The notes under the pieces were generated by a model. The model was not told the DNA's origin and did no database searches. It saw nothing but the letters and a program-made list of their open reading frames with translations. This document shows, in pieces, positions 380-14,476 of a DNA stretch of 15,878 bases (positions are counted from its first letter, which is position 1; each line of letters opens with the position of its first letter). Location of the stretch: assembly GCA_005772945.1 (NCBI GenBank), contig SXIE01000107.1, positions 1-15,878 on the forward strand, given 5' to 3'. Position numbers and translations under genes: made by a program. The DNA comes from Pseudomonadota bacterium. Its GTDB lineage: Bacteria > Myxococcota > UBA9042 > PHBI01.

Positions 380-405
380 CGCGTGAACGCTCAGGGCGTC
401 ACGCG
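380..405 (-). terminator. Hairpin enclosing the stop codon of the KaiC-like gene
   Basis: CGCGTG (380-385) pairs with CACGCG (400-405), and ACGC (387-390) with GCGT (396-399). This gives a 10-bp stem with one bulged base (386) and a 5-base loop (391-395) that contains the TGA stop codon of the minus-strand gene. No T-run follows, so it may slow ribosomes, protect the 3' end or act as a non-canonical terminator. It could also be chance structure in GC-rich DNA. Confidence 0.35.
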
Positions 406-2178
406 CGCGAGCGCAACCCACATCGTCACACCGTCGCGTCTGCTCGAGGCCGCGTAACCGACGTCGACCAGGCGCTGGAGCGTAGTCTCGAGCTCTTGCG
501 GAGCAAGTTGGGTATCGGCAGCCAGGACCTCGAACGTGCACTCGCCGACCGACGCCAGCCGCCGGGCGACCAGCGCTTCACGCGCAACGAGCCCATGGTG
601 TTCGGGGCGCCGGCGCGGCTCGTAGAGCGGGACGCCCGTGATGATGCCGCGGTAGTCGGACAGCGCTTCCCCGATCTGGATGCCGCCATGGCCGATCTCG
701 AAGAGCCGCATCTCCCGGCTGTGGCGCCCGCCGCGCATCTTCACGATGGCGACCACGCGCCGATAGGTACCCTCGATCTCGATGTAGCGGTTGAGGATGA
801 TGTCGTCACACATGAACGACACGCCATAGACCGTGAAACGTTGCTCGCTGTAGGTCTCGGCGACCTCGTTGGTCAGCATCACGGTGACGCCGATCGACGT
901 GATGACACGCACCAGCCGATGCAGTGACTCGCGGAAGTCCTGGCGGAACGTCGGCGCCAGCGCGACCTCGAAGCCCGCGAGCGAGTCGATGATCACCCGC
1001 GTCGCCTGGAGCGACTCGACGGTGTCGCGCAGCTCCTGCATCGTCTCGTCGACCGAGAGGTCGAGCGAGCGCAGGTAGACGACCTTGAAGCGACCCTCGC
1101 TCACCGCGCGCCTGAAGTCGTCGCCGCCCAGCGCTTCCGCCTTCGCGAAGTACTCGCGCGGATACTCCTCGAACCCGGCGACGACCACCGACTCGCCCCG
1201 CTTGAGGCCCTCGAGCGCGAACTGCATGGCGAACGTCGTCTTACCGGAGCCTGTCGGCCCGGCCACCAGCACGACGTCGCCGACGGGGATGCCGCCCTCG
1301 GTCATCTCGTCGAGCCCCGGGATCCCGGTCGACAGACGCTGCCCAACGGGGCGCGGCGTCGAGAGCAGCGGCTCCTGCCTCATCCGCGGGAAGACGTGCA
1401 GGCCGTTGGATGAGATGCGGAACGTGTGGAGCCCCGGCATCGACGCCTGCCCACGGACCTTGATCACCTGCAGCTTGCGCACGACCGAGTTGCGGTCCAC
1501 CGCCTGCGACAGCCAGATGATCCCGTCCGCCACTGTGAAGACGGGGTTATTCCACTCGCCGTCCCCGTGCTCCCCGACGAGGAACGAGGTCACCTCCCAG
1601 GTGGTCAGGTGCATGGCGAGCCGCTGGACGAACTGCTCGATGTGCGGCACGCCGCTCGCGAGGGCCGCGCGCACCATGGAGCGGAAGCTGTCGACGACGA
1701 CGAACCGTGGTTTGATCCGCGCAACCTCGTCGACGATGCGCGTGAGCACGGCCTCGAGATCGCCGGACTCGAGCTCGGCCCCGAGGTGGACGAAGTGGAG
1801 GTCGCGGCCGATGCACTTCGGGTCGAAGAACGGGAACTGCTGCTGGTGCCGCAGGAGCTTGAGCGTGGGCTCGCCGAGCACGGTGAAGAACAGCGCGGGG
1901 CTCTCCGGGGAGACATTCGCGAACAGGAACTGGAGCACGAGCGTGGTCTTGCCAGCGCCAGGACTGCCAGCGACGAGATTGAAGGAAAATTCGGGCAGCC
2001 CGCCGCCCAGCACGTCATCCAGCCCCGGAACGCCGGTTGGCAACTTGCGGAATTCTCGCTCGCGAGGACCTCGCGTGGGATCGGACCCCGTAGCGAGGTT
2101 GCCCGCGAATTCCGCAGAAGGCCGGGCTTCTGCCCCGCTGCCCGCGGCGTTCAATTCGGGATCGCGAGCCTCAGCCAT
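391..2178 (-). CDS. KaiC-family double P-loop ATPase with C-terminal winged-helix-like region
   Basis: A 595-residue RecA-like ATPase of the KaiC family, longer than the ~519 residues of cyanobacterial KaiC. Domain I has GVPGLDDVLGGG, a Walker A (71-78, GSPGAGKT) and a Walker B (FVVVDSF, 159-165). Domain II has GIPGLDEM, a Walker A (307-314, GPTGSGKT), the paired catalytic glutamates E337-E338 and a Walker B (RVIIDSL, 394-400). Domain I keeps only one of the usual two glutamates (LGEPT). At the KaiC S431/T432 position the sequence reads S454-F455, so only one phosphosite remains by manual alignment. Residues ~530-591 look like a winged helix-turn-helix absent from KaiC. The ATG at 2178 was chosen because AGGAGG precedes it; an upstream in-frame ATG at 2301 lies inside the neighbouring gene. 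The start overlaps that gene's stop by 8 bases. No KaiA or KaiB is in the window. Probable signalling or regulatory ATPase. Confidence 0.9.
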   Translation of the reverse strand: MAEARDPELNAAGSGAEARPSAEFAGNLATGSDPTRGPREREFRKLPTGVPGLDDVLGGGLPEFSFNLVAGSPGAGKTTLVLQFLFANVSPESPALFFTVLGEPTLKLLRHQQQFPFFDPKCIGRDLHFVHLGAELESGDLEAVLTRIVDEVARIKPRFVVVDSFRSMVRAALASGVPHIEQFVQRLAMHLTTWEVTSFLVGEHGDGEWNNPVFTVADGIIWLSQAVDRNSVVRKLQVIKVRGQASMPGLHTFRISSNGLHVFPRMRQEPLLSTPRPVGQRLSTGIPGLDEMTEGGIPVGDVVLVAGPTGSGKTTFAMQFALEGLKRGESVVVAGFEEYPREYFAKAEALGGDDFRRAVSEGRFKVVYLRSLDLSVDETMQELRDTVESLQATRVIIDSLAGFEVALAPTFRQDFRESLHRLVRVITSIGVTVMLTNEVAETYSEQRFTVYGVSFMCDDIILNRYIEIEGTYRRVVAIVKMRGGRHSREMRLFEIGHGGIQIGEALSDYRGIITGVPLYEPRRRPEHHGLVAREALVARRLASVGECTFEVLAADTQLAPQELETTLQRLVDVGYAASSRRDGVTMWVALARVTP

Positions 2179-2545
2179 GGTGTCCTCCTTCCGGGGTCTC
2201 GTCCGGATCTCTACAGGCCTGGTCGAGGATCTGCATGGCGAGGGTGGGTCCGACGAGCCGCCCGAGGATCTCGGCGACGGCGACCAGGGGCCGCAGATCA
2301 TCGTCGGCCTCGGTTTCGCGCGAGGCCGCCGAAGGTGCGCGCGTCGTCGCGGTCTTGGAGGTCTCGCGCCGCACGCGCAGAAGGAGCGCGTTCCAGCCGT
2401 CTGGGCCCGTGAGTCGCGTGAGGGTCAGGCCGATCCGCGCATGCAGAGTCTCGAGCGCGCTAGCGGCGCTCGCTCCCGCGCGCTCTGCTGCCAGCGCGCG
2501 CGACAGGAGTCGCGTCGCTTGCGCCGAGAAGTCCTGGTGTGACAC
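2171..2545 (-). CDS. Small helical protein of unknown function, translationally coupled to the KaiC-like gene
   Basis: A 124-residue protein with no recognised catalytic motif. It has two predicted helical parts: an N-terminal one (LLSRALAAERAGASAASAL then ALLLRV) and a C-terminal one (LRPLVAVAEILGRLVGPTLAM), joined by a polar linker rich in Thr, Ala and Arg. Its stop codon lies 8 bases inside the next gene, and the KaiC-like gene's AGGAGG site lies within its last codons, so the two are almost certainly one coupled operon. The GTG at 2545 is preferred because GAGG sits six bases upstream; an earlier in-frame GTG at 2593 would add 16 residues with a poorer site. The arrangement suggests a partner or adaptor of the ATPase, which is inference. 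It has no visible likeness to KaiA or KaiB. Confidence 0.65.
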   Translation of the reverse strand: MSHQDFSAQATRLLSRALAAERAGASAASALETLHARIGLTLTRLTGPDGWNALLLRVRRETSKTATTRAPSAASRETEADDDLRPLVAVAEILGRLVGPTLAMQILDQACRDPDETPEGGHHG

Positions 2546-2695: not shown

Positions 2696-3850
2696 TCACT
2701 CCCACTCGAGCTTCTCGGGGGCGGCCATCGGGCGCGCGGCGTAGAGGCGCGTGCCGGCTGCAACGCGGTAGCTCTTGCCGCGCCAGGCGACGCGTCCGAG
2801 GAACGGGGCGAGGGCCCAGACGCCGAGCATCGCGAGCTCTTTGATGGGCCCGAGCGGGAGCGCCGCGAGGAGGCCCTTCTTGCCGCGGAGGGCGACCCAC
2901 TGGATGGCGTCGCGCACGAGCGTGAGGGCGGTCGCGTAGATGAGCGCGGTGCCGCTGCCGGTCGCGAGCGCGAGGACGGCGAGGAACATCGGGTTGATGA
3001 GCGGCTCGAACGGGTAAAGCTGCGGGGTGAGGCGGCTGCGCAGGAGGCCCCAGCGGGTGTGGCGCCTGAAGAACGTGCTCACTTGCGTGTGCGTGCAAAC
3101 GTTCTCGACGGTGACGGCGGCGAGGCGGACGCGATAGCCGGCCTCGGCGAACATGCGGCCCATCACGTAGTCCTCGGCGAGGAAGCTGCCGATGCTCTCG
3201 AAGCCGCCGAGTGACTCGAAGGTGGTGCGGCGGAACATCATCGACTTGCCGACGGCGGCGGTGCTCTCGCCGAACTCGTTCGTCGCGGCGATGCTGCCGG
3301 CGACCGGTCCGGCCAGGTGGAGGTTCTCGAGCGTCGCGCCGAGCGACTCCTCGCCGGTGCCGACGAAGAGGTTCGTGAGGAGGCCGTTGTCGGGGTGGCT
3401 CGCGAACTCGCTCACCATGCGGGCGAGCCAGTCGGGACGGACGGCGACGTTCGAGTCCGAGATGACGACGAGGTCGTGCGAGCCCCAGGCGAGCATCGCC
3501 GAGAGGTTCGAGACCTTCGGGTTGAGGGCGCGTTTGCCGTCATGGATGACGAGGCGGACGCGCACGTCGGGGTAGCGGGCGCGCAGGCGGCGCACGACGG
3601 CGATGGCGGGATCGGCCTCGCCCTCGACGCCGAAGACGAGCTCGAAGCGCGGGTGGGTCTGGCGAAAGAAGGTCTCGAGGTTGCGCTCGAGCGCGTCGTC
3701 GGCGCCGCAGAGCGGCTTGAGGATCGTGACCGAGGGGGCGTCGCTGGAGGGCGCCGGCAGCGCGCGTTGGCGGCGCGCGAAGCGGACGACCGCGATGATG
3801 CTGAGGAGGGTGGTGAGGCTGACGATGAAGCCGATGAGCGGGATCCACAT
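2696..3850 (-). CDS. Membrane glycosyltransferase, ceramide glucosyltransferase / HpnI-like (GT21-type)
   Basis: A 384-residue GT-A fold enzyme that should transfer a sugar from a nucleotide-sugar to a lipid at the cytoplasmic membrane. An N-terminal membrane helix (about 4-22) is followed by the catalytic domain: VTILKPLCGADD (41-52, first Asp), NPKVSNL (110-116), D132-S-N134, E226-D227 (AEDYVMGR) and the (Q/R)XXRW motif R263-H-T-R-W267. Hydrophobic C-terminal segments (about 286-318 and 330-350) and a WRGKSYR motif (356-362) follow, as in ceramide glucosyltransferases and hopanoid-associated HpnI. Length matches these families. The ATG at 3850 has a GGAG site eight bases upstream; the frame stays open further 5' but without family sequence. 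It follows the GtrA-like gene on the same strand by 128 bases. No other hopanoid or sphingolipid gene is visible, so the acceptor lipid is unknown. Confidence 0.85.
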   Translation of the reverse strand: MWIPLIGFIVSLTTLLSIIAVVRFARRQRALPAPSSDAPSVTILKPLCGADDALERNLETFFRQTHPRFELVFGVEGEADPAIAVVRRLRARYPDVRVRLVIHDGKRALNPKVSNLSAMLAWGSHDLVVISDSNVAVRPDWLARMVSEFASHPDNGLLTNLFVGTGEESLGATLENLHLAGPVAGSIAATNEFGESTAAVGKSMMFRRTTFESLGGFESIGSFLAEDYVMGRMFAEAGYRVRLAAVTVENVCTHTQVSTFFRRHTRWGLLRSRLTPQLYPFEPLINPMFLAVLALATGSGTALIYATALTLVRDAIQWVALRGKKGLLAALPLGPIKELAMLGVWALAPFLGRVAWRGKSYRVAAGTRLYAARPMAAPEKLEWE

Positions 3851-3978
3851 GGTTGGTACTCCGAGTGTTTGATGCGAGCGCGAGGCCCGTTCGCGACGGA
3901 CCGACGTGGCCCGTCGGGGCCTTTTGGCGGGCTGCCAGGGAGGGTGACGTTTCAGCGCGATGCGCTGGCTCGGCGGGT
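3851..3978 (-). other. 128-base gap between the GtrA-like and glycosyltransferase genes
   Basis: Non-coding stretch within a probable operon. It has the GGAG ribosome site for the downstream gene and GC-rich inverted repeats, notably GGCCC (3908-3912) with GGGCC (3917-3921), followed by TTTT on the plus strand only. No clear promoter was seen, so the glycosyltransferase may be read from the upstream promoter. Confidence 0.4.
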
Positions 3979-4404
3979 TCAGCCCGGGCGGAAGATCCGG
4001 CCCCAAAGCGGGTAGCTGAAGCCGAAGTAGACGCCGCTGGTGGCGAGGGCGCGGGCGAGGATCCAGGGGAGCCCGAGGATGGGCGAGAGGAGGTGGAAGA
4101 GGGCGGCGTTCAGGAGGAAGGCGCCGGTCTCGACGGCGAGGAAGAGCGAGCCCTGGCGCAGGAGCTGGGGCGAGCGGTCACGGAAGGCGTAGTGCTTGTT
4201 GCCGATGAACTGGATGAGGAGGCCGAAGGTGAGGGCTGGGAGGTTGGCCCAGGCGGGGCTCATCTGGAGGCCGTCGATGAGGAGCGCGAGCAGGCCGAGG
4301 TCGGCGAGCGAGGCGAGGATGCCGACGATCGCGCTGCGCTTGAGGACGCCGGAGGGCGTGCGGTTGCGGCTCAGGTCGAGAGAGGTGTTCGTTGCGGTGT
4401 CCAA
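3979..4404 (-). CDS. GtrA-family polytopic membrane protein (putative lipid-linked sugar flippase)
   Basis: A 141-residue protein with four hydrophobic segments (about 24-44, 52-68, 85-105, 113-133) and the family's conserved stretch after helix 2, FIGNKHYAFRD (66-76), in which N69 and F74 match the usual F..N....F pattern. GtrA-like proteins are thought to move undecaprenyl-phosphate-linked sugars across the inner membrane for surface glycosylation. The TTG at 4404 is chosen because AAGGA lies six bases upstream, the length then fits the family, and a sigma-54-like promoter lies just 5' of it. An in-frame ATG at 4524 would add 40 residues without family character and would place the promoter inside the gene. 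Its downstream neighbour is a lipid glycosyltransferase, which fits a shared pathway. Confidence 0.8.
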   Translation of the reverse strand: MDTATNTSLDLSRNRTPSGVLKRSAIVGILASLADLGLLALLIDGLQMSPAWANLPALTFGLLIQFIGNKHYAFRDRSPQLLRQGSLFLAVETGAFLLNAALFHLLSPILGLPWILARALATSGVYFGFSYPLWGRIFRPG

Positions 4405-4438
4405 GGGGTGTCCTTCGTGGGGCTCGTTGCGCTGACAT

Positions 4439-4454
4439 TCCAAAGCGCGTGCCA
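4439..4454 (-). promoter_or_regulatory. Sigma-54-type (-24/-12) promoter upstream of the GtrA-like gene
   Basis: Read on the minus strand, the 16 bases TGGCACG-CGCT-TTGGA match the sigma-54 consensus TGGCACG-N4-TTGCA at every defined position except the C of the -12 GC, which is G here. The spacing between the two elements is exact. A start about 12 bases past the -12 element would fall near 4429, leaving a leader of about 25 bases before the TTG at 4404. Such promoters need an enhancer-binding activator; no activator gene is in the window. The -12 mismatch lowers confidence. Confidence 0.5.
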
Positions 4455-4505
4455 AGCGAATCACGTCTTGCAAGGTCCTTGAGTTGTTCGTGTTTCGTGC
4501 TCGGC

Positions 4506-4548
4506 CCGAGCGGTCGCTCGGCATTTTCTTGCGCGCTTCGGGCGCGCA
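4506..4548 (+). terminator. Two consecutive hairpins in the divergent region, the first followed by TTTTCTT
   Basis: CCGAGCG (4506-4512) and CGCTCGG (4515-4521) form a perfect 7-bp stem with a 2-base spacer, followed on the plus strand by CATTTTCTT. A second 7-bp stem follows (4530-4536 with 4542-4548, loop TTCGG). The first looks like an intrinsic terminator, but no plus-strand gene ends here. It could end a short leader or antisense transcript, or the palindrome could instead be a protein-binding site. Confidence 0.3.
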
Positions 4549-4787: not shown

Positions 4788-5867
4788 GTGTCGGTTGCCC
4801 TCGAAAACGTCTTCGTCCGCCCGCTCGACGGGGCGCGGCGCGTGTTCTGGCGCTGGTCCGCCAAGACGCGCTTCGGGCGCGCGTGCATGCGCGATCGCGG
4901 GTTGCGCATGGCGGTCCTCGCGCTCGGCCACATGTCGGTCGGGCTGACGCTGACGCTGACGGTGCCGATGTGGCTGCTCCTCCTCGGGCCGCTCGTACTC
5001 GGCGTGCCGCACGTCGCGGGGGATATCCGCTATCTGCTCGTCAAGCCGCCGCTGCCGCTCGGGCGCCTCGGGCTCGTGCTCCTTCTCGCTCCGCTCGCGC
5101 TCATGACCGGACTCCGGCTGGCGCCGGCCGAGTGGGGACTGTGGCACGCGGAGATCGAGGTGCTGCTCGGGGCCCTGGCCATCGCGGGCGGGCTCATCGT
5201 GGCGCGCACGTCCCTCGATCGGCGCGTGGTGGCGTTCGCGTGTTTGGCCGGCGTCGCCGCGCTCGGCGCGCACTTCGCGTACGCTGCGATCCTCGTCATG
5301 GCGCACCTGCACAACTTCGTCGCGTTCGGCGCGTGGCTCTGGCTCTATCGCAGCGAGGCGAGCTGGTCGCGCGTGGCGGTCGTCGGGGCCGCGTATCTGG
5401 CCATCTGCAGCCTGTTCGTCGCGGGCGCCTTCGACGGCATCCTGCTGACGAGCACCTACGGCGTGACCGCCGCCGGGCTCGACATGGATCACTTTGCCCC
5501 GACCCTGGCCCCCGGCGTCGAGCCGGTCATGGCCATGCGCATCGTCGCGCTTTACGCCTTCGCGCAGTCCTTTCATTACGCCGTGTGGGTGCGGCTGGTC
5601 CCTCAGCAGATGGACCCGCGTCCGGCGCCGCCGACGTTTACGCGCACCGTCGGTCGCCTGCGTCAGGACCTCGGGGTGGTCGGATTCTGGGCCGTCGTGG
5701 TGTCGGCGGTCGGCCTGCCGATCGCGGCGCTGCTCACGAACCCCCAGGAGGTCCGCTATGTGTACCTGGTCGCCGTCATCTTCCACGGCTGGCTCGAGCT
5801 CGCCGTCTTCGGCGCCCTCGCGCTCCATCGCGCGGGTGGTCGTCGCAGCGGCTGGGGGCGCGCATGA
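4788..5867 (+). CDS. Polytopic membrane protein with conserved-looking histidines, Brp/Blh-like pattern
   Basis: A 359-residue protein with about eight to ten hydrophobic segments. Histidine-bearing motifs sit in or beside them: G72-V-P-H75 followed by G-D79, H173-L-H175-N176, S261-F-H263-Y, and F332-H333-G-W-L-E337. GVPH followed by an acidic residue, with further membrane histidines, recalls the Brp/Blh family of membrane beta-carotene 15,15'-dioxygenases (GVPHGALD, then HW/HH motifs), in which histidines bind iron. The match is partial and other motifs differ, so a different membrane metalloenzyme is possible. No carotenoid gene or rhodopsin is visible. The GTG at 4788 gives a basic N-terminus but has only a weak ribosome site; Met34 and Met41 are alternatives. 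The stop overlaps the next gene's start as ATGA. Existence of the gene is confident; its function is not. Confidence 0.75.
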   Translation: MSVALENVFVRPLDGARRVFWRWSAKTRFGRACMRDRGLRMAVLALGHMSVGLTLTLTVPMWLLLLGPLVLGVPHVAGDIRYLLVKPPLPLGRLGLVLLLAPLALMTGLRLAPAEWGLWHAEIEVLLGALAIAGGLIVARTSLDRRVVAFACLAGVAALGAHFAYAAILVMAHLHNFVAFGAWLWLYRSEASWSRVAVVGAAYLAICSLFVAGAFDGILLTSTYGVTAAGLDMDHFAPTLAPGVEPVMAMRIVALYAFAQSFHYAVWVRLVPQQMDPRPAPPTFTRTVGRLRQDLGVVGFWAVVVSAVGLPIAALLTNPQEVRYVYLVAVIFHGWLELAVFGALALHRAGGRRSGWGRA

Positions 5868-6253
5868 GCGGGCCGGAGCTCGGCGTGTGGCCGCCGGAGT
5901 TCTTCGCGGCGTGGCTGTCGGCGTTCGTCGTGACCTGCCTCGTCGAGACGCCGTACTACGTCGGGTTCGCGCTGGGGTTCCGGCGCCTCACGTGGCCTCG
6001 TGCCATCGTGGCGTCGCTGGCGCTCCAGATGATGACCCACCCGGTGCTCTGGCTCGTGTGGCCGTTCGTCGAGCCCGACGCGTACGGCAACCCGGTGTCC
6101 TACGCGGTGCTGGTCGTCATCGCCGAGACGCTGGTCGTGCTGGCCGAGGGGACGCTGCTCGCGCTCATGTGGCGCGGGGCCTGGGGGCGCGCGTATCTCG
6201 CGGCGCTCATCGCGAACGCGGCCTCGACGTTGGTCGGCATCTTGGCCCACTGA
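5864..6253 (+). CDS. Small membrane protein of unknown function, coupled to the His-rich membrane protein
   Basis: A 129-residue, mostly hydrophobic protein with about four membrane segments and scattered polar residues within them: LVETPYY near residue 26, THPVLW near 58, E..VVLAEG near 87-95, and a terminal N..S...G pattern (NAASTLVG). Polar residues in an otherwise hydrophobic small protein suggest a functional rather than purely structural role. The ATG at 5864 overlaps the preceding stop codon by four bases (ATGA), so translation is coupled and the two products probably work together. A much longer open frame runs upstream in this frame, but it shadows the neighbour. I recognise no named family. 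Confidence 0.75.
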   Translation: MSGPELGVWPPEFFAAWLSAFVVTCLVETPYYVGFALGFRRLTWPRAIVASLALQMMTHPVLWLVWPFVEPDAYGNPVSYAVLVVIAETLVVLAEGTLLALMWRGAWGRAYLAALIANAASTLVGILAH

Positions 6254-6280
6254 CCCTGGCCCTATTGGCGCTGAGGTCAG
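6250..6280. terminator. Inverted repeat between convergent genes
   Basis: CTGACC (6250-6255) and GGTCAG (6275-6280) form a 6-bp stem around a 19-base loop holding a further small GCC/GGC pairing. It overlaps both stop codons of the convergent genes, which are only 23 bases apart. Without a T-run, it is a weak candidate for a shared terminator. Confidence 0.3.
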
Positions 6281-8100
6281 GGCGCAGCGGGCGCGGTTCC
6301 CGCGATCCAACCAAAGAGCGTGATGAGCCCGTGGTCGTCGAGCTCGGCCGTCACCGCGAGGCCGTGGCGGTCGCGGCGCACGCTGACGCCGCGGATCTCG
6401 GGCGCGAGGTTGACGAGCACCGGGAAGGTGTCGGGCACCTCGAGCGGCGCGAGCGCGGCGATCGTCGCGGCGATCGCGTCGAGCTTCGTGCGCGTCGCCG
6501 GGCTCACGGTGGGGCCGAGCTCGACGATGACGTCGCGCACGGCCTTGGACAGGCGCGTGGTCTTGTCGTCGCTGCCGCGCGCGATGGCGACGGCGCGCGC
6601 CGCCTCGATGCGGGTCTCGACGCGGTCCGAGGCGCTCACGCCGGCGCCGTGGTTCGCCATCGGGAGATCGAAGACGAGGCGCCGGCGCTGGTCGAGGGCG
6701 AGCGATGCGCCGACGGCGCCGAGGTCCGTCGCGTTCTCGGTGCCGACGACGGCGGCGCGTGCCGGGCTCTTCGGGCCGAGCCAGACCCAGACGGCGCCCG
6801 CGGTGCTGAGGCGGTCGAGCAGGCGCTCGTCGTTGTCCTCGAGCGCGAGGGCGACGGGGCCGCGGGCGACGATCGCGTCGGCGAGGGCGGGGGCGCCGAT
6901 GACGAGCACGTCGTCGTTGGCAGCGCGCGCTACGGGGGCGGTCGGGGTCGTCGCGGCGGCTGGGTCCGCAAGCGCCTGGTTGACGGCATCCGCGCGCAGC
7001 CCGGCTTCGTCGCCGCGCAAGATCACGACGCGTTCTCCGGCGGCCGTGATGACGACGAGGCCTTCGGTGATCGGTTCCCACGTCATGCCCGCGCCCTGAA
7101 GCGCATCGAGCACGCGCCCGGCCGTTGGCGAGGTTCGGATGATGCCCGTGAGCGCCTTGTCGGACGCGATGACGCGCGGGTTCAGCCCGACGACGAGCGC
7201 GCCGTCGGCCGGTGCCCACGCGATGAGGGGCGGCGCGCGAATGACGCCGATGAGGAGCGCGAAGCCGAGCGAAACGACCATGAGAAGGAGCAGCGAGGTG
7301 GCCAGCGCACGCAGGGCGCGTCCCGAGACGTTCGCAGCCTCGCGCGCGCGCGCACGGCTCACCGTGAAGGCGATCAGGACGCCGAAGCCGTAGAGGAAGT
7401 TGAGCGGGACCGCGAGAAGGCTCTGCGAGAGCGGGTCCGGCGGCGTGATGACGCCGGCAATGAGGAACGAGATGACGATGAAGTAGCGCCAGAACTTGAG
7501 GAGGCCCTTGCCGCTGACGACGCCCCAGAGGGCCAAGAAGAAGAGGACCAGCGGGAGCTCGAAGACGAGCCCGGCCATCAACAAGAAGAACCACGAGAAC
7601 GAGTAGGTGCTCGAGAGGGTCAGCGCGACGTCGACGTTGCCACCCTCGAGCGTCAGGCCGATCATCCAACTCGTCATGACCGGGATGATGACGAAGTAGG
7701 CGAAGAAGGCGCCGAGCAGGAAGAAGATGAGCGAGAAGCCCGTCATCGGGAGGATGAAGCGCTTCTCGCGCTTATAGAGCCCGGGTGAGATGAAGCTCCA
7801 GAGCTCGTAGAAGATGTAGGGCGCGAGGAAGAAGAAGCACGCGATGAGCGTGACCTTCATGTAGACGATGACGCTCTCGGTGATCCCGATCGCCTGGTAC
7901 GAGTAGATGCCGTGCGCCGCGAGGCTCTTGGTCACCGGGGCCGACATGAAGTCGAAGACGTCGTGTCGGTACTCCCAGGCGAAGATGGTGCCGACGACGA
8001 GCGCGGCCGCGATGCGGACAATGCGGCGGCGCAGCTCGCGGATGTGCTCGCGGAAGGTCATCGTCTTGCCGGCGAGGTTCTCGTCGGTGGCGGCTGTCAC
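6277..8100 (-). CDS. tatC: TatC twin-arginine translocase with an extra membrane helix and large C-terminal domain
   Basis: Residues 1 to about 250 are a complete TatC: N-terminal FREHIRELRRR (16-26, with E22 and R24 matching E. coli E15 and R17), six membrane helices, LYKREKR after helix 2 (108-114), GLVFELP with E181 (E. coli E170), and TPPDPLSQ with D222 (E. coli D211). TatC recognises twin-arginine signal peptides and nucleates the pore. Ordinary TatC stops near residue 250; here the frame continues to 607. A seventh hydrophobic helix (about 266-287) would carry residues 288-607 into the periplasm. This tail alternates short beta-rich stretches (ALVVGLNP, GLVVITAAGERVVIL, DDVLVIGAP), like myxobacterial DUF3352-type substrate-free domains (inference). 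The GTG start overlaps the tatB stop (GTGA), with GGAG five bases upstream. The fusion is a single uninterrupted frame. Confidence 0.92.
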   Translation of the reverse strand: MTAATDENLAGKTMTFREHIRELRRRIVRIAAALVVGTIFAWEYRHDVFDFMSAPVTKSLAAHGIYSYQAIGITESVIVYMKVTLIACFFFLAPYIFYELWSFISPGLYKREKRFILPMTGFSLIFFLLGAFFAYFVIIPVMTSWMIGLTLEGGNVDVALTLSSTYSFSWFFLLMAGLVFELPLVLFFLALWGVVSGKGLLKFWRYFIVISFLIAGVITPPDPLSQSLLAVPLNFLYGFGVLIAFTVSRARAREAANVSGRALRALATSLLLLMVVSLGFALLIGVIRAPPLIAWAPADGALVVGLNPRVIASDKALTGIIRTSPTAGRVLDALQGAGMTWEPITEGLVVITAAGERVVILRGDEAGLRADAVNQALADPAAATTPTAPVARAANDDVLVIGAPALADAIVARGPVALALEDNDERLLDRLSTAGAVWVWLGPKSPARAAVVGTENATDLGAVGASLALDQRRRLVFDLPMANHGAGVSASDRVETRIEAARAVAIARGSDDKTTRLSKAVRDVIVELGPTVSPATRTKLDAIAATIAALAPLEVPDTFPVLVNLAPEIRGVSVRRDRHGLAVTAELDDHGLITLFGWIAGTAPAAP

Positions 8101-8681
8101 GAACGCTCCGGAGGTGGGGTGCCGGCGGTGGCGGGAGGGGGCGTCGGGGGCGGCGCGGGCTCGTGCGCGGGAGGCGCCATCGACGCGGTCGGCGGCCGCC
8201 CGGGTAGCACGGTCGCCACGCGCCCCTCGACCGGCGCCTTGCCGATCTTGCTCCAGTCACGGGCGTTGATCGATGTCTTGGCGGCCAGGCTCCCGAGGTC
8301 GCGCGTCGCGAGCTCGGGGACGACGGCTGCTTCTACGACCGGCTCCTCTGCGGGCGCCGGGAGCGCCACCACCGGCGTGCCGTCGGCGTTCGCGGCGATC
8401 GGGCCGTCGAGGCCGCTGGGTTTGCCGTCTTCCGTGTCGTTGTCTTTCTGTTTCTCTTTCTCTTTCTCTTTCTCTTCTTCGTCCTCGGCGAGGCGCGCCG
8501 CCTCGGCCTGGAAGTCGCGCACGGTCCTGCGCACCTCGTCGTCGACCTTGCTCATGGCGCCGCGCACCTGGCGCAGGCCCTTGCCCAATTTGTTGGCCAT
8601 CTTCGGGAGCTCGTCCGGCCCGATGAAGAGCAAGGCGAGCACGAGGATGATCAGGATTTCCCAGGTGGAGAGCCCGAACAT
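8097..8681 (-). CDS. tatB: TatA/B-family subunit, TatB-like, with long charged and proline-rich tail
   Basis: A 194-residue single-helix subunit of the twin-arginine translocase. The N-terminus MFGLSTWEILII has the TatB-type Glu8 in the helix, then the Gly21-Pro22 hinge and an amphipathic helix (ELPKMANKLGKGLRQVRGAM, 24-43). Glu8 favours TatB over TatA, but a dual role cannot be excluded because no separate tatA is visible. After a further charged helix, a Glu/Lys stretch (68-79) and a long Pro/Ala-rich tail (from about 150) extend it beyond the usual TatA length of about 90 and slightly past typical TatB. The ATG at 8681 is set by the family N-terminus; no strong ribosome site precedes it. 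The stop overlaps the tatC start by four bases, so assembly of the two is probably coupled. Confidence 0.88.
   Translation of the reverse strand: MFGLSTWEILIILVLALLFIGPDELPKMANKLGKGLRQVRGAMSKVDDEVRRTVRDFQAEAARLAEDEEEKEKEKEKQKDNDTEDGKPSGLDGPIAANADGTPVVALPAPAEEPVVEAAVVPELATRDLGSLAAKTSINARDWSKIGKAPVEGRVATVLPGRPPTASMAPPAHEPAPPPTPPPATAGTPPPERS
8445..8474. repeat. Hexanucleotide microsatellite inside tatB
   Basis: Four perfect TTTCTC units (8451-8474), preceded by one imperfect unit TTTCTG (8445-8450), encode the Glu-Lys repeats of TatB on the minus strand. The tract is AT-rich compared with its surroundings. Because the unit is six bases, copy-number change would lengthen or shorten the charged linker without shifting frame. 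Confidence 0.8.
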
Positions 8682-8744: not shown

Positions 8745-11303
8745 TTAGAAGTCGGTCGCCGTCGGAGCCACGTCGGTCGGCTCGGTGCCCTTGCGATGCG
8801 GGATGACGAGGCCACCTTCCATGTCGGGCGGCATGAGCAGTCCGCTCGCGGGTTCGATGCGAACCTCGACCACGTCGGGCGGGACCTCGGGGGTGAGGCC
8901 GGGGCGCTTCTCGCCGCGCGGGACCGGGTCGACGCGCCGCATGTAGGACACCCACGCCGGCAGCGCGGCGGTCGCGCCGTACACGCGGTTGTCGCTGGTG
9001 GATGGCCCCAGCGGGCGCTCGTGGCGGTCAGAGCCGAGCCACGCGACGGCCGCGCGGACGCCCGTGAAGCCGACGAACCAAACATCGTAATCGTTGGTGC
9101 CGGTCTTGCCGCCGGCCTCGCGTCCGACCTTCTTGGCCTCGGTCGCGGTGCCCTCGGCGACGACCGCCGCGAGGTTGCGGGTGATGAGGTAGGCGGTCGT
9201 CGCCGAGATGGCGGCGGCGGGCGGGTGGAGGGCCTGATTCCAGGCGGCGACCCAGGTGTCGTCGGCCCCCGCGTGCGGGTCGATCGGGGTCCAATGGCGC
9301 TCGAGGATGACGCCCTCGCGGGTCGAGACCTCGCGAACCAGCGTGGGCGCTGCGGCCCGTCCCTGGCGTGCGAACGTCGCGAAGGCGGCGAGCATCCCGC
9401 GCGGGGTCTCCTCGGCGCCGCGCACGTCCGAGGCGTAGCCGCCGAGCTCGAACGGTAGGCCGAGCGCGCGTCCCCAGGCGCGATACGCGGCGAGCCGGGT
9501 TTCGCGAGTCGTGGCGTTGCCGCTCGGATCGCGCGCGCCCAGGACCAGATGCAGGACGCTCGCGCTCGCGTCGTTGTCGGACTTCATGAGGCCGCGCCAG
9601 ATCGGGATGAGGTCCTTGCCCGACGTGCTCATGTTGACGAGCTCCGAGGGCGGGACCCCGAGGTCGTAGGCCTTCGCGTAGATGATCGGTTTGATGCTCG
9701 ACGCGGTCGGTCGGCGCGCGTCGAGGCGGTTGACCTCGCTGCGATCGAAGTCCCAGCCGCCGACCATGGCCTCGAGCCCATCGGCGGCGAGGCTGGTCGA
9801 CGCGAGCGCACCCTCGACCAGCGGCACCGACACCAGCGCGAACTCGAGCGCGGGCGGTCCGCTCGGCGCCGGGAGCGCGTCCTTCCTGGGCTTCTTGCCG
9901 GTCGTCGCCTTCGGCGGGGGCGGCGGCGGAAGGACCTCGACCAGGACGACGTCGCCCGGCGCGAGCGCCTTCGAGAGGTCCTTCAGGACCCCGCCGAAGC
10001 TGACGCGCGCCGTCTGGACGCGGCGGCCCTTGTCGTCGACGGGGAGCTCGCTGTAGGGCGCCGCCCAGCGCGCGTTCGCGAGCGCGAGCGTGCCCTGCAT
10101 GCCGACCCCTACCTCGAGCGTCGCCGCGTCCGCATTCACGCTCGCGACGCGCGCGAGCACGCGCCGGCCGACCTCGGTCGTGACCCAGCGCGCGTTGCGC
10201 GCGAAGAACGCGTCGCGCTCCATGCGCCCGAGTGGGCCCGGGAAGCCCTGCTTCTTCTGGAGGTCCTCGAGCGCCGTCGCCAGGGCCGCCGCGGCGGCGC
10301 GCTGCGCCCCGGGCTCGACGGCCATCCGGATCGTGAGGCCGCGCTCCAGCCAATCGTCGCCCCACGGCGCGGGGCGCGGCTCGCACTCCTCGTGACGCGC
10401 GGCCGCGGCGGTCCGCTCGGCCGCGTTGCATTCCGGCGCCGCCATTCGCCGCACCGCCTCGGCGTACTCGGGGGTGCCCTCGTTCCAGCGATCGCGCAGC
10501 GGGTAGACCGTGACCTCTTCGCCGCGCGCGCGGTCGGCGTCGGCGCGGGTCGCCCAGCCCAGGCTCACCATGTTGTCGAGGATGTGGTTCATGCGCCGCC
10601 GCGTCGCCGCCAGATCGGTCGCCGGGTTCGCGCGGCTCGGCGACTGCGGGACGCCTGCGAGCATCGCCATCTCGGCCAGCGACAGGTCCCAGACGTTCTT
10701 GCGGAAGTAGTTCTGCGCGGCCGCCTGCACCCCGTAGCTGTTGTGGCCGAGGTAGATGAGGTTCATGTACCAGGCGAGGATCTGTTCCTTGGTGTACAAA
10801 TCTTCCATGCGGCGCGCGAGGATGGCTTCCTTGACCTTGCGCGCCCACGAGCGCTCGCTGCCGACGAGCGTCTTGGCGAGCTGCTGCGTGATGGTCGAGG
10901 CGCCTTCCTTGGTGCCGCCCGCGAAGAGGTTCGTCACCATCGCGCGTAGGATCCCGCGGAAGTCGAGACCGGCGTGATCGAAGAAGCGTTCGTCCTCGGC
11001 CGCGAGGAAGGCCAGGACGAGCGGGCGCGGGAAGTCCTCCCAGCGCAGCGCGAGGCGTCGCTCGTGGTAGCGCTCGCCGACGAGGCTGCCGTCCGCGGCC
11101 TCGAAGCGCGTGACCCCGCGCGCCGCCAGCGAGTCGAAGCTGTCGAGCGCGGGCAGATCGGTCGCGAGCGCCGTGTACAACGAGAGCGCCCCCACGGCGG
11201 CCGACGTCACGAGGACGAGCGCGCCCGCGACGGCCAAGCGGGCCAGCCAGAAGGGCCAGCCCGCGCGGCGGCGGTTTGCGATCGTGAAGGTCGGGGTCGG
11301 CAT
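8745..11303 (-). CDS. mrcA: Class A penicillin-binding protein 1A (bifunctional transglycosylase/transpeptidase)
   Basis: An 852-residue inner-membrane enzyme that polymerises lipid II and cross-links the glycan strands. An N-terminal helix (about 20-43) is followed by a GT51 domain with the catalytic Glu in E103-D-E-R-F-F, GASTITQQLAKTL (134-146) and the second acidic site near E159. A PBP1A-type OB-like domain comes next (about 320-500), carrying an unusual proline run and basic stretch (459-475). The transpeptidase domain has the active-site S535-S-I-K538, S575-D-N577 and K733-T-G735. The Ser motif is preceded by Thr-Ala rather than the common Pro-Gly. Length and the OB-like insert point to PBP1A rather than PBP1B. 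The ATG at 11303 is the natural start, before a short basic cytoplasmic segment. It is divergent from the outer-membrane pair. All catalytic residues are present. Confidence 0.93.
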   Translation of the reverse strand: MPTPTFTIANRRRAGWPFWLARLAVAGALVLVTSAAVGALSLYTALATDLPALDSFDSLAARGVTRFEAADGSLVGERYHERRLALRWEDFPRPLVLAFLAAEDERFFDHAGLDFRGILRAMVTNLFAGGTKEGASTITQQLAKTLVGSERSWARKVKEAILARRMEDLYTKEQILAWYMNLIYLGHNSYGVQAAAQNYFRKNVWDLSLAEMAMLAGVPQSPSRANPATDLAATRRRMNHILDNMVSLGWATRADADRARGEEVTVYPLRDRWNEGTPEYAEAVRRMAAPECNAAERTAAAARHEECEPRPAPWGDDWLERGLTIRMAVEPGAQRAAAAALATALEDLQKKQGFPGPLGRMERDAFFARNARWVTTEVGRRVLARVASVNADAATLEVGVGMQGTLALANARWAAPYSELPVDDKGRRVQTARVSFGGVLKDLSKALAPGDVVLVEVLPPPPPPKATTGKKPRKDALPAPSGPPALEFALVSVPLVEGALASTSLAADGLEAMVGGWDFDRSEVNRLDARRPTASSIKPIIYAKAYDLGVPPSELVNMSTSGKDLIPIWRGLMKSDNDASASVLHLVLGARDPSGNATTRETRLAAYRAWGRALGLPFELGGYASDVRGAEETPRGMLAAFATFARQGRAAAPTLVREVSTREGVILERHWTPIDPHAGADDTWVAAWNQALHPPAAAISATTAYLITRNLAAVVAEGTATEAKKVGREAGGKTGTNDYDVWFVGFTGVRAAVAWLGSDRHERPLGPSTSDNRVYGATAALPAWVSYMRRVDPVPRGEKRPGLTPEVPPDVVEVRIEPASGLLMPPDMEGGLVIPHRKGTEPTDVAPTATDF

Positions 11304-11329: not shown

Positions 11330-11407
11330 AGCGCTTCGCGCGCGTGGGCCGCAACGGGCGCGGTGCCGCTTCCGATCCATATTCGCTCGCGAAGAGCGCG
11401 AAGCGCT
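11330..11407. promoter_or_regulatory. Perfect 12-bp inverted repeat with 54-base spacer in the divergent promoter region
   Basis: AGCGCTTCGCGC (11330-11341) is repeated exactly, inverted, as GCGCGAAGCGCT (11396-11407). The pair lies upstream of both the PBP1A gene and the outer-membrane pair. It could be two sites bound by a looping regulator, or arms of a large hairpin in the PBP1A leader. Twelve exact bases are more than expected locally, though both arms use common GC-rich words. Confidence 0.4.
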
Positions 11408-11433
11408 TGCCCGCGAATTGGTGGTGGGCCTGC

Positions 11434-11461
11434 TTGACAGCGATCGGAACGCGGATAGATT
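11434..11461 (+). promoter_or_regulatory. Sigma-70-type promoter for the outer-membrane gene pair
   Basis: A perfect -35 hexamer, TTGACA (11434-11439), is followed after 16 bases by TAGATT (11456-11461), which matches TATAAT at four of six positions. The expected start is near 11468, giving a leader of about 70 bases before the ATG at 11539. It is the best primary promoter seen in the window and fits strong, constitutive expression of outer-membrane proteins. Confidence 0.65.
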
Positions 11462-11538
11462 GCACCGCGGTCCCTTCCCGCGCCGAAAAGCAGCGCGCTC
11501 CACGGCCCGGCGCGTGTGGCGCTTCGACGGAGGCAACC

Positions 11539-12441
11539 ATGAGACAGTGGCAGACGTTATTGGTGTGTGCGCTTGGCGCTTGCAGCGTCGGCGCGGCGTG
11601 GCTCGGCGGCGGCAACGTCGCGCGCGCGGCCGACCCGGCGGACGCGGACATCGACAAGTCCGTCCCCGCGCGCTTCATCATGGGGATCAAGTTCGGTGCC
11701 GGTGGCACCCTCTGGGACTCGCCCGACGAGAGCGTCCTGTCGGCCACGCCGACCGATGACAAGTGGGACATCCCGCTCTTCAACGAGACGCGCGCCGGCT
11801 ACACGATCTCGAGCGGCTTCTACGTCGAAGGTCTCTTCTTCGACCACCTCGGACTCGAAGTCGGGTTCAACTTCGTGCAGCACAACCTGCTCGAAGAGGT
11901 GAAGTGGAGCTTCACCGAGCAGATCACCATCGGTGGCGATACGACGATCTCGACGTTCCACGCCAAGTCCGAGGAGAAGCTCTCGTGGACCGCGTTCCAC
12001 CTGCCGATCCTCGTGAAGGCGGTCGTCCCGACGAGCCCGACGACGCGCATCTCGCTCGGGGTCGGTCCCGAGTTCGCGTTCACGTCGTGGGGCAAGACCA
12101 AGTTCAAAGTCACCGAGAGCGACACCACCAATCCCGACGGAAGCCTGCGGTTGCCCGCGTCGCGCGGACAGCTCCAGCGGCTCGGCGCGAAGCTCGAGGA
12201 CAGCATCTATTTGAAGGTCGTCCTCGGCATCCAGATCACCGCCGGCGACTTCCTCATCCCGATCGATATCCACTGGGGCTACAACTTCAGCCAAGAGAAG
12301 AAGTACCTCGAGCGGGTCATCGTCGATCCGAACACGATCCCGGATATGGACAACCCTGATCGGCACCCGGCGGAGGTGACGCTCAAGACCAGGGACACCA
12401 TGTACGGTGGCATCAACGTCGGCATCGGCTACCAGTTCTGA
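11539..12441 (+). CDS. Outer-membrane beta-barrel protein, exported
   Basis: A 300-residue exported protein. The signal peptide runs to about A30 (NVARA|AD), although an earlier LGAC (12-15) could be read as a lipobox, so lipoprotein processing is an alternative. The mature part has alternating hydrophobic/polar strands typical of small barrels (GYTISSGFYVEGLFF, LGLEVGFNFVQ, ISLGVGPEFAFTS, MYGGINVGIGYQF) and ends in Phe, the usual C-terminal signal for BAM-mediated insertion. It resembles generic OMP_b-brl-type domains rather than a named porin; the substrate is unknown. The ATG is supported by GGAGG six bases upstream; the open frame extends 65 codons further 5' but includes the promoter. 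It lies 19 bases before the OmpA-like gene, so the two form an operon. Confidence 0.8.
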   Translation: MRQWQTLLVCALGACSVGAAWLGGGNVARAADPADADIDKSVPARFIMGIKFGAGGTLWDSPDESVLSATPTDDKWDIPLFNETRAGYTISSGFYVEGLFFDHLGLEVGFNFVQHNLLEEVKWSFTEQITIGGDTTISTFHAKSEEKLSWTAFHLPILVKAVVPTSPTTRISLGVGPEFAFTSWGKTKFKVTESDTTNPDGSLRLPASRGQLQRLGAKLEDSIYLKVVLGIQITAGDFLIPIDIHWGYNFSQEKKYLERVIVDPNTIPDMDNPDRHPAEVTLKTRDTMYGGINVGIGYQF

Positions 12442-12460
12442 GGACGGCGGAGGGACGACG

Positions 12461-14476
12461 ATGAAACGCAGCATGCAATCCGCTCGTGTTCTGGGGGCCT
12501 TGGCCGTCGCGGGTCTGGTGTTCGTCGCGCCCGGGGCGCAGGCGGCCGATCCGAAGGAGTGGTCGCTCCAGAAGTTCCGTCCGGCCGTCCACTCGCTCGG
12601 CGGGTTCACGACCGAGTCGGGGCGAGTGAGCCACGGGTTCACCATCAACGCGTACCTTCTGACGAACGTCGCGGGAGCCGTTCTGCAGGACGGCGCGGGC
12701 GACGACGTGGTGGACATCTTCGGGTCCAGCGACATCGTCGCGAGCATCGGGTTCCTCGACCACTTCTCGTTCGGCTTCGACGTGCCGTTCCACTTTGGAT
12801 CCGGCAAGTTCCTGGACGGGGACAACCTCGCGGACTTCACGGTCGGCGACATCCGCCTCTCGCTGAAGGCCGCGGCCGTGAAGCCGTACCGCATCGGCGG
12901 AGGCATCGCGCTCGGGCTCGACGTGAGCGTGCCGAGCGGCAGCCGGGGCGGGTTCGGCAAGGAAGAGGGCGCGGTCATCACGCCGAAGGTGATGCTCGAT
13001 GCCATCACGCGGCATGTGCACCTCATGACGAACATCTGGGCGTCGTTCCGGTCCGGCGGCGAGTTCGAGCCGGACACGACGTCGCTTCCGCTGGGCGCGA
13101 ATCTGGCGATCGGAAACGAGGCCGGCATTCAGGCGGCGCTCGCGATCTTCCTGGGGTCGACCGACTTCCGCATGCTGGTCGAGGCGCGCCTCGAGTCGCG
13201 CGTCGCGCGCTTCTTCGAGCCCCAGAATACGCAGATGGAGTTCACCTGGGGCCTGCACTGGAAGCATAACTCGGGCTTCGCGGTGGGCGGCGGCGCCAGC
13301 TTCGGCGCGCTCCCGGGGTACGGCGACCCGGACTGGCGCGGGTTCCTGACGGTCGGCTATCAGCCCAACGCGCTCATCCCGATGGAGGAGCCGAACAAGG
13401 ACAGCGACGGCGACGGGATCGTCGATCGACTCGACAAGTGCCCGAAGGACCCCGAGGACAAGGATGGCTTCGAGGACGAGGACGGCTGCCCCGACGCGGA
13501 CAACGACAAGGATGGGATCCTCGACGGCAGCGACAAATGCCCGAACGATGCCGAGGACAAGGACGGCGACCGCGACGACGACGGGTGCCCGGATCTCGAC
13601 CAGGATGGCGACGGCATCGCGGACGACCTCGACAAGTGTCCGACCAAGCCCGAGGACAAGGACGGGTTCGAGGACGAGGACGGCTGTCCCGATCTAGACA
13701 ACGACAAGGACGGGATCCCCGACACCGAGGACAAGTGCCCGGACAAGGCCGAGGACTTCGACGGCGACCGCGACACCGACGGTTGCCCCGATGGCGACGG
13801 CGACAAGGACGGGATCCCGGACGACATGGACAAGTGCCCGGCCCAGAAGGAGGACATCGACGCCTTCGAGGACGAGGACGGTTGCCCGGACCCGGACAAC
13901 GACAAGGACGGCATCCTCGATGCGAGCGACAAGTGCCCCAACGACCCCGAGGACAAGGACGGATTCAAGGACGACGACGGGTGCCCCGAGCCGGACAACG
14001 ACAGCGACGGCATCCTCGACGTGAACGACAAGTGCCCCGACAAGGCCGAGGACAAGGACGGCTGCCAGGACGAGGACGGCTGCCCCGAGGAGGGCAAGGT
14101 CTGCGTGACCAAGGAGAAGTTCGTCATCTCGGAGAAGATATTCTTCAAGACCGGCAAGGCGGACATTTTGCCGAAGAGCTACGCGCTCTTGGCCGAGCTC
14201 GCCAAGGCGATGAACGACAACCCGCACGTGCTGCTCGTCGAGATCCAGGGTCACACCGATGACCAGGGACCGGATGCGTTCAACAAGACGCTGTCGGAGG
14301 CGCGCGCCGAGTCGGTGATGAGCCACCTCGTGACGATCGGCAACGTGGGCGCGGCGCGGCTCTCGGCCAAGGGTTACGGCGAGGACTTGCCCATCGCGAG
14401 CAACAAGAACGCGAAGGGCCGCGAGATGAACCGGCGCGTCGAGTTCATGATCCTGAAGCAGGACCCGGCACCGTGA
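12461..14476 (+). CDS. OmpA-family outer-membrane protein with seven thrombospondin type-3 repeats
   Basis: A 671-residue protein in three parts. After a signal peptide (cleavage near A28, AQA|AD), residues ~35-305 form a beta-rich, probably barrel, domain. Residues 315-545 are seven calcium-binding TSP3 repeats of exactly 33 residues, each with D.D.DGI.D..DKCP and ED.DG..D.DGCP, contributing two cysteines per unit. Residues ~550-666 are an OmpA C-terminal domain: GHTDDQG (597-603), LSEARAESV (611-619), GYGEDLPIASN and MNRRVEF (656-662). The Asp of HTDDQG and the Arg of SEARAES correspond to the residues that bind diaminopimelate in peptidoglycan. It should span or anchor the outer membrane and grip the wall, with a Ca2+-stiffened rod between. 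GGAGG precedes the ATG. Repeats 2 and 4 share GDRD in place of GFED, hinting at unit duplication. Confidence 0.92.
   Translation: MKRSMQSARVLGALAVAGLVFVAPGAQAADPKEWSLQKFRPAVHSLGGFTTESGRVSHGFTINAYLLTNVAGAVLQDGAGDDVVDIFGSSDIVASIGFLDHFSFGFDVPFHFGSGKFLDGDNLADFTVGDIRLSLKAAAVKPYRIGGGIALGLDVSVPSGSRGGFGKEEGAVITPKVMLDAITRHVHLMTNIWASFRSGGEFEPDTTSLPLGANLAIGNEAGIQAALAIFLGSTDFRMLVEARLESRVARFFEPQNTQMEFTWGLHWKHNSGFAVGGGASFGALPGYGDPDWRGFLTVGYQPNALIPMEEPNKDSDGDGIVDRLDKCPKDPEDKDGFEDEDGCPDADNDKDGILDGSDKCPNDAEDKDGDRDDDGCPDLDQDGDGIADDLDKCPTKPEDKDGFEDEDGCPDLDNDKDGIPDTEDKCPDKAEDFDGDRDTDGCPDGDGDKDGIPDDMDKCPAQKEDIDAFEDEDGCPDPDNDKDGILDASDKCPNDPEDKDGFKDDDGCPEPDNDSDGILDVNDKCPDKAEDKDGCQDEDGCPEEGKVCVTKEKFVISEKIFFKTGKADILPKSYALLAELAKAMNDNPHVLLVEIQGHTDDQGPDAFNKTLSEARAESVMSHLVTIGNVGAARLSAKGYGEDLPIASNKNAKGREMNRRVEFMILKQDPAP
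13403..14095 (+). repeat. Seven tandem 99-bp coding repeats (TSP3)
   Basis: 693 bases divide exactly into seven 99-base units encoding the 33-residue TSP3 repeats. Nucleotide similarity is high in the GACAAGGA...GACGGCTGCCC segments and weaker in the linkers. Copy number could change in frame by recombination. The units are coding, with no spacers, and should not be taken for a CRISPR array. Confidence 0.9.

Follow-up and report, generated by a model that had tools for sequence, protein, structure and literature searches.

The TatC protein is usually viewed as a minimal membrane protein of six helices, with both the N-terminus and the C-terminus in the cytoplasm (N-in, C-in). The sections of Deme et al. 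2026 (PMC13323110) that deal with the receptor describe TatBC receptors as trimers of TatBC pairs, with TatC packed tightly at the periplasmic face and the membrane thinned; cargo is argued to cross along the edge of the TatBC core instead of through the centre, and a periplasmic insert in the TatC of M. xanthus is a homotrimer that adds TatC-TatC contacts. The locus described here lies in a stretch of 15,878 nucleotides (the window; contig SXIE01000107.1 of assembly GCA_005772945.1, GTDB phylum Myxococcota, PHBI01), and carries a tatC gene whose frame continues well past the TatC core. The added part is predicted to be a seventh transmembrane (TM) helix followed by a folded periplasmic domain, and TatC proteins with a C-terminal domain are present in most of the genomes examined from one class of myxobacteria-related bacteria.

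The fused tatC gene

The features of this gene and its immediate partner are as follows.

6277-8100, minus strand: tatC with C-terminal extension, 607 codons, GTG start, TGA stop (PF00902, E 3.9e-59)
7405-8049, minus strand: TatC core domain, residues 18-232 (PF00902)
7330-7362, minus strand: basic linker between TM6 and TM7, about residues 247-257, predicted cytoplasmic from Lys/Arg counts
7243-7329, minus strand: seventh transmembrane helix, residues 258-286, from the AlphaFold2 helix and hydropathy
6280-7239, minus strand: C-terminal alpha/beta domain, residues 288-607, predicted periplasmic, TP0453-like fold
6457-6639, minus strand: long helical hairpin within the C-terminal domain, residues 488-548, from the full-length AlphaFold2 model
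8097-8681, minus strand: tatB, TatA_B_E family (PF02416, E 2.8e-9), first ATG at 8681, Glu at position 8

The TatC core scores 200.4 bits against PF00902 (cut-off 25.1) and 180.6 bits against NCBIfam TIGR00945 (cut-off 132.7). It contains EHxxELR, the Glu of the SPGLYxxEK stretch, ELP and TPPDPxSQ, all of them invariant or mostly so in an alignment of 33 proteins. A reading of the DNA made without database searches (the sequence-only reading) had claimed a complete core with its key residues, an added domain of about 320 residues behind a seventh helix, and a tight overlap with tatB, and these claims are borne out. The overlap consists of four bases, GTGA, in which tatC starts and tatB stops. 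Positions 6277-7240, which the same reading gave for the addition, fit the domain and its stop codon, with the helix falling just outside.

There are zero internal stops in the frame. Over the three codon positions the core has a G+C content of 0.53/0.40/0.96 and the extension one of 0.77/0.55/0.93; third-position G+C is thus high in both (0.957 vs 0.928), and both parts therefore look coding in the tatC frame. Scans of the last 327 residues detected no Pfam families at E <= 1, and a known enzyme or domain of unknown function (DUF) was rejected because neither Pfam nor NCBIfam gave a convincing match to the extension. Weak hits, among them Yop-YscD_ppl_3rd (7 of 33 members, best E 0.03) and DUF7534 (4 of 33, best E 0.018; wherever a position is given, this hit lies in the TatC core), were judged to be chance. 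A supposed likeness to DUF3352 appears in no Pfam scan result.

Distribution of the extended TatC

In a search of 5.8 billion proteins, 7996 candidates were scored and 39 matches were obtained at E <= 0.001, the window's own protein among them. Thirty-two of the 38 other matches are 564-622 residues long, align over 91-100% of the query and are 36-92% identical to it, although one (P0009) diverges in its final residues, perhaps through a frameshift; two more (P0035 and P0036) have this architecture too, but are truncated at the N-terminus. The four TatCs P0037-P0040, of 397-405 residues, are extended in a different way, with about 140-172 additional residues ahead of the core, and one of them is labelled Candidatus Latescibacteria.

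A profile of 33 rows was run on 377 genomes drawn evenly from the phylum of a metagenome-assembled genome titled Polyangia bacterium (G001), and matched 351. The best 30 loci were examined in detail, and all 30 genomes fall within a single class, that of genome G208. At 29 of these loci the core is followed by a C-terminal stretch of 222-473 residues; the thirtieth (L110, in genome G199) stops at a contig end. A hydrophobic segment with a mean hydropathy of at least 1.6 lies near the start of the stretch in 28 of the 29, with L105 below that value. When 52 genomes of this class were searched, 49 had a match. The helix is present in all of 17 further class genomes, with 152-368 residues past the core, two of which (L138 and L149) run into a contig end. 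In total, the core and C-terminal domain were found in 46 of the 49 matched genomes. Genome G184, from the same order as G208, is cut by its contig, yet the end of a window-type domain is visible.

A claim that the domain is found throughout the class without exception was rejected on account of genome G137. Its TatC frame is split over two contigs (L158 and L159): it breaks at the end of one, and the other opens with the end of a TatC core, which stops about a dozen residues on. The two contig ends were examined apart, and their adjacency is likely. This ordinary-looking TatC indicates that the domain is not indispensable across the class; either the domain was lost here, or this lineage never acquired it, or the contig is of foreign origin.

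Outside the class, ten of ten loci (L081-L090) are ordinary, with 6-67 residues past the core, as are three of three loci with long open frames (3-19 residues). A first search of genome contigs returned zero relatives; a second returned 80 loci, in which no TatC frame extends more than 146 residues beyond the core match, and the majority extend fewer than 40. Among PLSDB plasmids 116 records matched, none covering 80% of the query. Free-standing relatives of the domain were not detected at E <= 0.001 among 7998 scored candidates, all of them 0.55-1.75 times the query length. A domain search in eight genomes found a fused copy in four, nothing in three and a weak match (6e-5) in G101, which sits in the frame of that genome's own TatC; two further matches had E values of 0.075 and 0.65.

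The fusion looks real and old. The chance that it is an artefact, whether an assembly join, a separate gene or non-coding read-through past tatC, is practically negligible: the extension does belong to no named family, but 32 further database proteins keep the whole architecture, the third-position coding signature runs along the entire frame, and a class-wide survey recovers the same combination of core and domain, so that the single fused protein first read from the window stands.

Exactly one PF00902 match per genome was detected in 47 of 47 relatives (30 and 17), of which 46 are extended and one (G199) is cut. One match was also found in G137, and none in G184, G132, G106 and G228. A tatB relative lies directly upstream of tatC in nine of nine fetched loci, and the same nine genomes contain one or two further TatA/B genes elsewhere. 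The single TatC in each of these 47 relatives argues that, judged by gene content, the extended protein is the working TatC there. The suggestion that the window's gene is the working tatC and not a stray copy is thereby supported for the relatives, to which the count is confined; the window's own genome lies outside it.

Phylogeny and extension types

A tree of the TatC core only was built with IQ-TREE from 241 columns and 143 rows (63 extended and 80 short). The extended rows were picked as the best profile matches, and include L110, labelled extended though cut; G137 is not in the tree. One branch separates the 63 extended rows from the 80 short ones (support 100/99, present in 100% of 200 bootstrap trees), and on this tree the extended cores tested form one clade. 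Within it, the window-type proteins are a subclade of 37 (support 100/100).

Profile comparison links the window-type domain to one other extension type with a probability of 95.5 (E 1.5e-8, 227 columns) and to another with a probability of 94.4 (E 8.6e-8, 263 columns). Type 3 TatCs (L111, L114-L117 and L119) keep the seventh helix and have a shorter domain, which is either replaced or very diverged. Some type 2 extensions (L097, L098, L106 and L112) end in lysine-rich tails of low complexity, with 19 Lys or Arg in the last 50 residues of L112 and 8-11 in the other three. A profile of the other extension types matched 322 proteins, at least 66 of which, among 120 listed, are 580-738 residues long; this figure concerns length only.

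Topology and predicted structure

A full-length AlphaFold2 model made from the 33-row alignment (mean predicted local distance difference test score, pLDDT, 79) contains the TatC helices, the further helix and then a mixed alpha/beta region, in which the hairpin is formed by helices 488-528 and 534-548. The model of the C-terminal domain is a confident one, with a pLDDT of 92. The best 19-residue hydropathy of helix seven is 2.75. In 33 of 33 aligned proteins there are 4-7 Lys or Arg in the 22 residues before this helix and 0-2 in the 15 after it. Given this positive-inside pattern and the cytoplasmic C-terminus of a six-helix TatC, the domain should lie in the periplasm, as the sequence-only reading had supposed from the added helix.

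No His or Cys is conserved at 85% or more among the 33 window-type proteins, and the window's domain has no Cys, which argues for a binding or bracing role; the domain is apparently non-enzymatic. Across the C-terminal domain, VIA found the same overall fold as TP0453 of Treponema pallidum (PDB 3K8G-3K8J); TP0453 is missing from the ten PDB sequence matches. A viral structure library gave no matches at E <= 0.001. The M. xanthus-type domain is absent among the matches listed for the domain model, an absence that excludes nothing.

Proposed role of the domain

It is proposed that the Tat receptor has been remodelled in the host lineage. The usual six helices would be followed by a seventh that crosses outward and bears a folded alpha/beta domain in the periplasm. 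With receptors built from three TatBC pairs, three of these domains would be expected to stand on the periplasmic face. There they could make up a crown or skirt, bracing the TatC trimer and maybe also touching the strained periplasmic leaflet beside it, and would not act as a gate over a central channel. The trimer, its periplasmic packing, the thinning and the trimeric insert described in the relevant sections of Deme et al. 2026 (PMC13323110) favour this bracing arrangement, to which a tentative probability of roughly 45% is assigned, ahead of a lipid handler, a partner dock and a chaperone. The domain would presumably contact the membrane or partners and affect export. The sequence-only reading had placed it "right at the exit" of the translocase; the periplasmic side is retained as the probable location, whereas an exit at this point is to be viewed with caution, given the argument, in those same sections, for cargo passing at the periphery of TatBC (PMC13323110).

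Several observations weigh against the bracing crown. The TatC of G137 seems to be an ordinary short form, although this leaves the odds of the different roles unchanged, because they concern genomes that have the domain. The domain diverges fast, with a mean majority of 0.55 vs 0.80 in the core, and profile comparison shows no detectable link between the type 3 extension and the window-type domain. A Foldseek search with the domain model gave zero matches at E <= 0.001, the likeness to TP0453 coming from VIA only, and a structure of the C-terminal domain or an experiment on it was not found in the literature searched.

The closest competitor, still unlikely, casts the domain as a membrane or lipid handler resembling TP0453, with helices that enter the periplasmic leaflet beside the translocase and, during transport, restrict leakage or give the thinned bilayer its shape. 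The common fold is what suggests it. However, identity to TP0453 is 8-10%, and a shared fold is no proof of function. TP0453 itself is a protein in its own right, unfused to a translocase, and a putative lipoprotein on the outer membrane's inner face, whereas the domain here is tethered through TM7 and not by a lipid anchor; it has no lipobox Cys, and a transmembrane helix precedes it. Somewhat more doubtful again is a wider version, in which nearly the whole class has a single seven-helix Tat receptor whose TP0453-like, membrane-engaging outer domains mould or seal the bilayer at the thinned site through which folded proteins pass. If true, this would be a built-in membrane factor on the trans side, undescribed in the literature searched.

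Less probable than either is a docking platform for envelope partners, such as an adjoining PBP1A or other periplasmic machines, that receives exported proteins. The argument for it comes from the gene upstream of tatB:

8745-11303, minus strand: PBP1A-family bifunctional peptidoglycan synthase (Transgly, E 1.1e-59; Transpeptidase, E 1.8e-7)

This gene is possibly in the same operon as tatB. The order pbp1A-tatB-tatC is found in the window and in three of four fetched window-type relatives (L128, L130 and L131), but not in the fourth (L129), nor in the four fetched relatives L132-L135, which belong to other extension types, can be read upstream and keep the extra helix and domain; L136 is without readable upstream DNA. 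The family scans found no cell-wall-binding family in the domain. A link of the extended TatC to wall synthesis is a local hint and not a class feature.

That the domain serves exported folded proteins as a chaperone or quality-control factor in the periplasm is very improbable: the predicted position on the outer side of the translocase would suit it, but the scans list no chaperone, isomerase or protease family and there is no conserved His or Cys, and the suggestion of a chaperone, a quality-control platform or a wall anchor found no matching family to sustain it.

Other genes in the window

Further genes noted in the window are listed below.

391-2301, minus strand: KaiC-family double ATPase (PF06745, E 4.1e-79, two stretches)
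2696-4524, minus strand: glycosyltransferase family 21 gene and GtrA-like membrane protein gene, overlapping
4788-6253, plus strand: two apparent membrane-protein frames of 359 and 128 residues, no Pfam match at E <= 0.01
12407-14476, plus strand: OmpA-family protein with thrombospondin type 3 repeats

In L129, relatives of the glycosyltransferase family 21 and GtrA-like genes lie immediately after tatC, and a relative of the 359-residue membrane frame lies about 5 kb from tatC. L128 keeps the order of the OmpA-family gene, the preceding frame (11344-12441) and pbp1A-tatB-tatC.

Comparison with known systems

A seventh helix with an outer domain represents a natural perturbation of the Tat receptor. 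The extended TatC sets limits on models of trimer opening, of the site at which TatA joins and of the site at which cargo exits; its extra mass beyond the micelle would be useful for electron cryo-microscopy; and because it resembles a membrane-inserting protein, how Tat avoids leaks becomes a question that can be tested from the outer side.

Haloarchaea have a TatC that is fused to a second TatC; the window's protein is likewise a fused TatC, but has one PF00902 stretch. Ordinary six-helix TatCs (4B4A, 4HTS and 9DZZ) differ in ending past TM6 with a short tail. A literature search, judged by titles and the openings of abstracts, found nothing on a TatC that has seven helices and a periplasmic domain at its C-terminus. 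A term search in the text of Simone 2013 (PMC3827258), as far as that text extends, shows no mention of extension, C-terminal, length or seven, and the part of a 2026 review (PMC13186574) that bears on this point covers the M. xanthus loops only. A TatC with a periplasmic domain is already known, whereas the literature searched yielded no case in which a seventh helix and a periplasmic domain behind it, at the C-terminus, are kept in most of a class. The TatC of Nitratifractor salsuginis (PDB 9E02) also has extra periplasmic sequence, but in the form of an insert in another periplasmic loop, reported to be disordered and to have no relation to the M. xanthus insert. Among the closest systems is M. 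xanthus TatC (PDB 9E03, domain 9E0S), which according to PMC13323110 likewise has a folded periplasmic domain of considerable size, placed on the outer side of its TatBC trimer. That domain is trimeric and inserted in a periplasmic loop (construct residues 127-303), whereas the loop segments of the window-type proteins are short and vary hardly at all in length, at approximately 36, 21-22 and 12 residues in 33 of 33 cases, and their domain is C-terminal, behind helix seven.
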